A stretch of 37,921 bases of DNA, from the NCBI GenBank assembly GCA_025361445.1, contig JANYLP010000049.1, positions 1-37,921 on the forward strand, in the 5' to 3' direction. The translations under genes were made by a program, and so were the position numbers. The notes under the pieces are model-generated. The model saw nothing but the letters and a program-made list of their open reading frames with translations, was not told the DNA's origin and did no database searches. Below are positions 20,658 through 22,399 of the stretch, piece after piece. Within the stretch, counting starts at the first letter, position 1, and every line of letters begins with the position of its first letter. The stretch is from Coriobacteriia bacterium. Lineage in GTDB: Bacteria; Actinomycetota; Coriobacteriia; Anaerosomatales; PALSA-660.

Positions 20658-20795
20658 TCAGGCGCTCAGGACCTTGCGGCCCTTGCGACGACGGGCAGCG
20701 ATGACCGCGCGGCCACCGGGGGTCGCCATACGGGCACGGAACCCGTGGGTCTTCGCACGCCTGCGGTTGTTCGGCTGAAATGTACGCTTGCTCAT
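20658..20795 (-). CDS. rpmH: 50S ribosomal protein L34
   Basis: [45 protein letters not shown]. Confidence 0.98.
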
Positions 20796-21060: not shown

Positions 21061-21564
21061 TGTGGATAGTGTGGAAAACGCAGGATACAGGCGCGTTCAC
21101 CCTGTGGAAAACCCGCGTGGCGTGATTGTTGACCACAGGCCCCTCTGCTAGAATCGGCGGCACCGCGCGGGCTCGGAGTGCGGCGCTCAGAACCTTGAAA
21201 ACCCCTGCTCAGAAGGCATGCTCTTGATCGGACACCTTGAGCGCCCTCGTCACTCCCGGGAAGTTATCCACAGCGTTCCGGCTGCGACGGGGGCATCGTC
21301 GTCCCTTATCCACAATCGGGCCTTGTGGAACGGTCTCGGAAAGCCCGTGATGGGTGCGCTACACCCCTTACCTAGCGTTTCGGCTTCGCCGGGTAGTGCG
21401 TGAACGGCATTGTTGTCCACAGGTGTGGAAAGGTCTGTGGACAGACGCGGAAATCCGCTGGTCAGTGGCTCTCATGAGCCTCTCAGTAAGGAGCCGGCTT
21501 GATTGTGGATACGCCCTTGAGCAGGGGTTTTGTAAAGCCGGATGTTTGGTTGGGTTGTGGATGG
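21061..21564. other. oriC: oriC: cluster of DnaA boxes at the strand-switch point
   Basis: TGTGGATAG (21061), TGTGGAAAA (21070), TGTGGAAAA (21103), TTGACCACA (21129), TTATCCACA (21264), TTATCCACA (21306), TTGTCCACA (21413), TGTGGAAAG (21424), TGTGGACAG (21436), TGTGGATAC (21504), TGTGGATGG (21556). Genes diverge from here. Confidence 0.88.
21126..21154 (+). promoter_or_regulatory. Extended -10 promoter overlapping a DnaA box
   Basis: TTGTTG (21126-21131), 17-bp spacer, TG-C-TAGAAT (21146-21154); DnaA-box-like TTGACCACA (21129-21137) lies across the -35. Confidence 0.45.
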
Positions 21565-21607
21565 AGTCTTGCAGTGTTCCACCGGGGAGAGACGCGAGGG
21601 GGTGTGT

Positions 21608-22399
21608 GTGAAACGGTTCTTTGAAGTCGAAGACGAGCGCGCCGGCATGGTCGAGATCACATCTCTCGGCGAAGCAGCCTCGGCTCCCGGCCGCCAGGCG
21701 GGAGCGCGTATCGCCGTCTATGACGGGCTGATCGCGGCGCCGCGCGTAGAGGAGCTGCTCGCGGACGACCTTGCAGCCGCCATCGAGCAGCTTGCTTCAC
21801 GCACCTACAACCTGGCGTACGAGCGCGGCGGTTCGATCCCTTTCACGATCATCCGTGAGGTGTCAGAGAACCTGATCCATGCCGGATTCCGCGAAGTCGT
21901 AGTCACGATCCTTGATAACGGGGCCACGATCCGCTTCGCGGATCAGGGCCCGGGGATTCCCGACAAAGAGAAGGTCTTCCTCCCCGGCTTCTCGACTGCG
22001 ACCGCCGGGATGAAGCGGATCATCCGCGGCGTCGGGTCGGGACTGCCGATCGTTCGGGAGACCCTTGCGTTCGCTGGGGGGACCATAGAGATAGATGACA
22101 ACCTCGGATCAGGCACGGTCGTGACACTGAGGGCCGCCGCGCCGGACATCCACGAGGATCCGATACCGACGATCGACGTCCCACGTCTGTCGGACCGGCA
22201 GAAGCACACGTTGTCGATCATCCTCGAACAGGGCGCCGTGGGGCCATCCGCCCTGTCGCGTGAACTGGATGTGGGACTGGCCACCGCGCACCGCGACCTC
22301 GCCTTTCTTGAGGACGCGGGGCTCATCGTCGGAGATCAGACAGGAAAGCGCACACTCACCGATCACGGCATTGCGTGTCTTGAGCGGGTGTTCGGATAA
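21608..22399 (+). CDS. GHKL (HATPase_c) ATPase domain fused to C-terminal winged-helix DNA-binding domain, upstream of dnaA
   Basis: N-box IIREVSENLIHAGF, G1 FADQGPGIPDKEKVFLPGF, G2 IIRGVGSGLPIVRETLAFAGG, GSGTVVTLRA; C-terminal wHTH LSDRQKHTLSIILEQGAVGPSALSRELDVGLATAHRDLAFLEDAGLIVG. No HisKA H-box seen. GTG at 21608 after GAGGGGG. Confidence 0.75.
   Translation: MKRFFEVEDERAGMVEITSLGEAASAPGRQAGARIAVYDGLIAAPRVEELLADDLAAAIEQLASRTYNLAYERGGSIPFTIIREVSENLIHAGFREVVVTILDNGATIRFADQGPGIPDKEKVFLPGFSTATAGMKRIIRGVGSGLPIVRETLAFAGGTIEIDDNLGSGTVVTLRAAAPDIHEDPIPTIDVPRLSDRQKHTLSIILEQGAVGPSALSRELDVGLATAHRDLAFLEDAGLIVGDQTGKRTLTDHGIACLERVFG

Follow-up and report, generated by a model that had tools for sequence, protein, structure and literature searches.

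Two described systems come closest to the protein reported here, which belongs to neither family. In function, the closest precedent would be AdpA, a protein that binds oriC in Streptomyces in competition with DnaA and does so with lower affinity in the presence of ATP; it is a pleiotropic regulator without a recognizable ATP-binding motif (PMC3411110). The likeness lies in a transcription factor-type protein at an actinobacterial oriC whose balance with DnaA is shifted by ATP (predicted, in our case), and the difference in an ATPase domain that is built in and a gene that is the first of the dnaA unit. AdpA is, to our knowledge, not encoded at dnaA. In architecture, the closest precedent is the pair CapK (HTH-STAS-GHKL) and CapS (STAS-wHTH), two proteins of immune operons; the CapK kinase is activated by single-stranded DNA and controls CapS, a winged helix-turn-helix (wHTH) repressor (PMC13373217). 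As there, a GHKL domain and a wHTH module would belong to one circuit upstream of the operon under control, but here the two are fused, there is no STAS domain, and the locus is dnaA.

Other GHKL proteins resemble it in part. SpoIIAB and RsbW likewise have a small stand-alone GHKL domain with a Glu at N-4 and no DHp domain; the present protein differs in its C-terminal wHTH, in having no adjacent sigma factor or STAS partner (its neighbors are rpmH and dnaA), and in its best Pfam match, HATPase_c, where proteins of that group consist entirely of a HATPase_c_2-type domain and have a STAS partner encoded in their operon. Two-component sensor histidine kinases share the HATPase_c fold with its N, G1, and G2 boxes, but here there is a wHTH and no HisKA/HisKA_3 helix, sensor domain, or adjoining response regulator. 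Proteins of the COG2865 type (AlbA_2-HATPase_c_4-wHTH) also have a GHKL-like domain followed by a wHTH; ours differ in having no AlbA_2 match and in being single-copy and dnaA-linked.

Many deep-branching Actinomycetota carry, between the origin and dnaA, a gene whose product joins a GHKL ATPase to a wHTH; both active parts are conserved, the linkage to dnaA is kept, and in the close families a second spaced motif accompanies the DnaA boxes. We describe it from one 37,921-nt window (the whole stretch of DNA that was analyzed), in which the 263 codons are preceded by a ribosome-binding site (GAGGGGG) and followed by a stop codon at 22397-22399. Close relatives likewise open with (M/V)KxFF/FY, in support of the GTG start. 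Coordinates of all features are given in Table 1.

Table 1. Features of the rpmH-dnaA region, numbered from the first letter of the window
Feature	Position	Strand	Remarks
rpmH	20658..20795	-	divergent neighbor across origin region
DnaA-box cluster	21061..21512	.	21061(-), 21070(-), 21103(-), 21264(+), 21306(+), inverted pair 21413(+)/21424(-), 21504(-)
Probable promoter, GHKL gene plus dnaA	21126..21154	+	TTGTTG 21126-21131, 17 nt, TAGAAT 21149-21154
S1	21197..21211	-	TGAGCAGGGGTTTTC
S2	21368..21382	+	TTACCTAGCGTTTCG
S3	21450..21464	-	TGACCAGCGGATTTC, 82 bp past S2
S4	21518..21532	+	TGAGCAGGGGTTTTG, 68 bp past S3
GHKL ATPase-wHTH gene	21608..22399	+	GTG start, 263 aa
N-terminal five residues, (M/V)KxF(F/Y/L)	21608..21622	+	short conserved motif, then variable linker
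GHKL/Bergerat ATPase domain, residues 33-176	21704..22135	+	takes in strand-helix module ahead of N-box
N-box REVSENLIHAGF	21854..21889	+	Glu at N-4 = E84, His at N+3 = H91
C-terminal wHTH, residues 194-262	22187..22393	+	recognition helix ~22277-22315
dnaA	22420..23877	+	preferred start 22420; alternative ATG 22402

The original prediction, made from the letters and open reading frames, had assigned the protein a Bergerat-fold ATP site, a C-terminal HTH, and no phospho-acceptor histidine domain, and all three assignments hold. Pfam HATPase_c matches residues 80-175 (E=3.4e-12) as well as 50/50 relatives, the N-box Asn, G1 (DxGxG), and G2 (GxGxG) of the GHKL superfamily are in place, and profile searches relate this part to histidine kinases, SpoIIAB, and MutL. 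A Pfam search for HisKA/HisKA_3 (DHp) domains in the protein and its 50 relatives gave no match, and neither AlbA_2 nor STAS was matched in the 263-aa protein. At the C terminus, Pfam matches are weak and to HTH models only (HVO_A0261_N, 4e-5; HTH_DeoR, 3e-3); among the relatives, HTH_IclR, TrmB, and MarR models match 17-33 of 50, with HTH_IclR at the upper end (33/50, best E 6e-11), and profile searches relate the region to MarR/IclR-type wHTH chains. PADLOC matches, almost all of the CARF/Csa3 type, are confined to it. As for the two-domain fold, AlphaFold2 run on a four-sequence alignment returned a confident wHTH for residues 191-260 (block pLDDT 81-93 for most of it), which has the three-helix bundle, wing, and conserved recognition helix of MarR/Csa3-like domains and superposes on MarR-type and Csa3 wHTH structures; the ATPase part, in contrast, came out at low confidence and is unreliable because only four sequences went in. 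No NCBIfam family spans the whole protein (matches are mostly to histidine kinase ATPase parts, far under cut-off), other GHKL proteins of the same genome show at best weak similarity to it, and the closest relatives that have a name are MAGs of Coriobacteriia and Actinobacteria. A literature search that covered papers outside subscription found no description of it, and with neither a family model nor a paper found, we regard a GHKL-wHTH gene before dnaA as undescribed.

Conservation was counted over 116 distinct loci. The ATP site is invariant in 116/116 (E84, N88, H91, D112, G114, G116, G127, G141, G143, G145, and G158), and the sole invariant His of the family is the one in the N-box. Within the wHTH, L234 is retained in 116/116, the recognition-helix Arg (R229) in 111/116, and R248 in 109/116; the recognition helix STAYRDL persists in most lineages and has diverged in families f42 and f18/f19/f22. 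The N-terminal motif occurs in 58/116 proteins versus 1.9 expected from shuffling, with variants such as MKSFY, MKNFL, MESYF, and RDFYPFVE in relatives, and could possibly be a peptide for protein contact. The linker between ATPase and wHTH is ~12-25 residues, reaching >200 in some Coriobacteriales; five Coriobacteriales orthologues (L086, L088, L123, L124, and L128) have linkers of 130-210 residues, Q/P-rich in L086, and in the same genomes the DnaA N-terminal domains have diverged.

The gene lies, as had been described, directly to the right of a DnaA-box cluster. The rpmH-gene interval of ~800 bp holds eight DnaA-box-like sites, and three more occur in the dnaA-dnaN spacer, so both spacers carry them. 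GC skew moves from negative to near zero at ~20 kb, a weak signal in keeping with an origin. We tried the inverted pair TCCACA-N-TGTGGA as a mark of GHKL-bearing origins and rejected it: it is absent in six relatives without the gene, yet present in phylum members that also lack it.

On its other side, the gene appears to form a unit with dnaA. The preferred dnaA start, which relative L014 favors, is 20 nt past the stop, as originally stated (the alternative ATG would leave 2 nt), and in relatives the gap is typically ~10-50 nt, with some 4-nt overlaps and larger gaps in some Coriobacteriales. We saw no terminator-like site in the GHKL gene-dnaA region, and the co-transcription that had been proposed is probable on this spacing. 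A sigma-70 consensus scan did not pick up the TTGTTG/TAGAAT promoter; its -10 element, TAGAATCGGC (the TAGAAT box), is conserved in relatives at about -457 from the gene, which implies a long leader crossing the origin. The probable ~450-nt 5' leader (21155-21607) would pass through the DnaA-box cluster. A conserved ACCTTGAAAAC, which recalls rRNA leader sequences, opens it ~40 nt after the TAGAAT box.

New here is a second, non-DnaA motif of 15 bp, yTnACCwGsGGkTTy, which in the close families accompanies the DnaA boxes and the conserved TAGAAT promoter and whose four copies (S1-S4) keep their order, orientation, and spacing in those families. It was found with DnaA boxes masked across 28 loci, drawn from the window's family and one neighboring family, and its information is 1240 versus 366-398 for shuffled sequence. 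In close loci, S2 and S3 are ~80 bp and S3 and S4 ~69 bp apart; the S2-S3-S4 arrangement beats all shuffles in 23/28, a score that describes more than it independently tests because the motif was fitted to these loci. S1-S4 are the top four motif matches in the window, and with a matrix made without the window's family, S4 and S1 still rank first and second. The conserved non-DnaA elements of the interval are compatible with a dedicated DNA-binding protein, and the GHKL-wHTH protein is the obvious candidate for binder of the S motif.

We were concerned that S1-S4 might instead belong to another factor, to a DnaA-dependent origin architecture, or to the 5' leader RNA, with the GHKL protein unrelated to them, and we rate this as a real possibility that falls somewhat short of an even chance. 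S1 and the promoter persist in L134, a relative without the gene, and S1 at least may therefore serve something else; in the window, S1 is complementary to S4, and the two covary in L009; folding of the leader is somewhat better than that of shuffled sequence (z=-1.9). Against this, S2-S4 copies do not covary within genomes, and no S2-S4 are evident by eye in the sequences of relatives without the gene. Copies from one genome are no more alike (0.53) than copies from different genomes (0.55), a pattern that suits degenerate protein sites more than RNA pairing. An RNA stem of S1 with S4 was rejected: complementarity is significant in just 6/21 loci, mostly of the window's own family, and S2-S4 show no within-genome excess. 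In other families sharing the recognition helix, the motif did not turn up, the core word ACCWGC being enriched with z=8.0 in close families versus <2.5 in those others, and a universal CCWGC half-site is unsupported beyond the close families. One clade of four genomes (L025, L028, L031, and L042) keeps the gene and has no S arrangement. Because the motif does not extend to other families, because of this clade, and because of S1 in a GHKL-less relative, we put S2-S4 as the target of the GHKL-wHTH protein at roughly even odds.

We favor, with fair but not strong confidence, the view that the protein is an ATP-responsive, one-component DNA-binding regulator acting in cis at dnaA/oriC, close to what had originally been inferred. 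It would be soluble, cytoplasmic, and dedicated to the dnaA locus. Its GHKL domain would bind, and probably hydrolyze, ATP and would set the dimeric state, and its wHTH would bind DNA within the rpmH-dnaA interval that holds oriC. Once bound, the protein would, by nucleotide state, tune transcription of its own gene and dnaA and/or access of DnaA to oriC; S1-S4, interspersed with the DnaA boxes, would be likely contacts in the closest families, and as to the sign of regulation, we offer autorepression as a guess. The dnaA neighborhood by itself is not proof of the protein's function.

The invariant Glu at N-4 is also found in SpoIIAB, and profile searches match structures of the anti-sigma F factor SpoIIAB (E ~1e-4); together with CapK/CapS, where a GHKL kinase controls a wHTH repressor (PMC13373217), this could point to a Ser/Thr kinase of SpoIIAB/RsbW/CapK type that its wHTH would hold on DNA and whose GHKL domain would phosphorylate a partner, possibly DnaA or a different regulator, instead of only changing conformation. 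We consider such a kinase unlikely: the rpmH-dnaA interval holds neither a STAS-domain gene nor any other obvious gene for a substrate, and the best Pfam match is HATPase_c, not HATPase_c_2, which only 3/50 relatives match. The same Glu also occurs in non-kinase GHL ATPases.

Wide distribution of the gene and its linkage to dnaA speak for the favored regulator, and its absences speak against it. A six-frame search (E<=1e-20) found one orthologue per genome in 342/398 Coriobacteriia genomes, covering 127/153 genera and 296/316 high-quality genomes. Across Actinomycetota, 157/396 genomes carry an orthologue (E<=1e-10), a few with a second, weaker match and many in other families at ~35-60% identity; we take the carriers to include Rubrobacter xylanophilus DSM 9941, Eggerthella lenta DSM 2243, and Cryptobacterium curtum. 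Most sampled Actinomycetota outside the carrier classes have no GHKL gene at dnaA. The linkage on which the original prediction was to stand or fall is kept in several classes: in 108/108 loci with continuing sequence, dnaA comes next on the same strand (the remaining 8/116 stop at a contig or replicon end), and a divergent rpmH lies upstream in 108. Protein distances track DnaA distances (Mantel r=0.67; maximum of 999 permutations, 0.20). Of 20 class genomes without the gene, 12 are also without dnaA (assembly gaps), two have dnaA at a contig edge, and six have assembled intervals with rpmH followed directly by dnaA (L132, L134, L135, and L137-L139), natural gene-loss cases for origin comparison. 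Such relatives count against an essential role, and because carriers and noncarriers interleave on the DnaA tree, the pattern suggests several losses.

That the gene is lost in places while dnaA remains, and that the S motif is not conserved family-wide, would also suit a protein that controls other genes (a stress or energy regulon) and sits at dnaA through an old operon arrangement, without acting in cis at oriC. We think this quite improbable, since linkage is without exception across the 108 testable loci and their many families and the window's own genome has no second S-consensus cluster: a consensus fitted to S1, S3, and S4, with <=1 mismatch allowed, matched nowhere else in the 1.57-Mb genome. 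Very unlikely, in our estimate, is a fuller scheme of a switch in the dnaA operon, an ancient Actinomycetota system lost in the well-studied Actinomycetes, whose wHTH would hold it at S-type sites of oriC while the GHKL domain, with its SpoIIAB-like Glu, would respond to ATP/ADP, or to single-stranded DNA where the origin has opened, by phosphorylating or displacing DnaA. We rejected a classical histidine kinase (no DHp/HisKA phospho-acceptor domain), a CapK-like defense regulator (no STAS match, nonimmune locus), an orphan or chance ORF (conservation and distribution across Coriobacteriia and Actinomycetota), and a mobile or plasmid gene (no plasmid match, no viral match, vertical signal).

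Work on replication start covers a small number of actinobacterial models (Streptomyces, Mycobacterium), and we know of no gene that separates rpmH from dnaA in these. Much of the phylum, with gut Coriobacteriia and Rubrobacter among its members, encodes an unstudied ATPase-wHTH at the head of the dnaA unit, and the protein may be a dedicated control protein for the start of chromosome replication. Were it to regulate dnaA or oriC, it would allow a direct test of coupling between energy state and initiation. For culturable lineages, the finding points to a gene for deletion, and S1-S4 provide defined DNA for a binding assay.

Two other sequence patterns were seen in subsets of the loci. In all seven Rubrobacter-type loci of family f40 (L102, L104-L107, L118, and L121), (S)CTGCAAA follows an inverted DnaA-box pair plus a third box at an unvarying distance, and similar copies lie farther upstream; as a counterpart motif beside the third DnaA box, it is only suggestive. 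In one subgroup (L020, L027, L029, L034, L035, and L039), repeated GTGTTCGA words, for example ACCTGCGTGTTCGACGCGTGTTCGATG, follow S2 at about -215.
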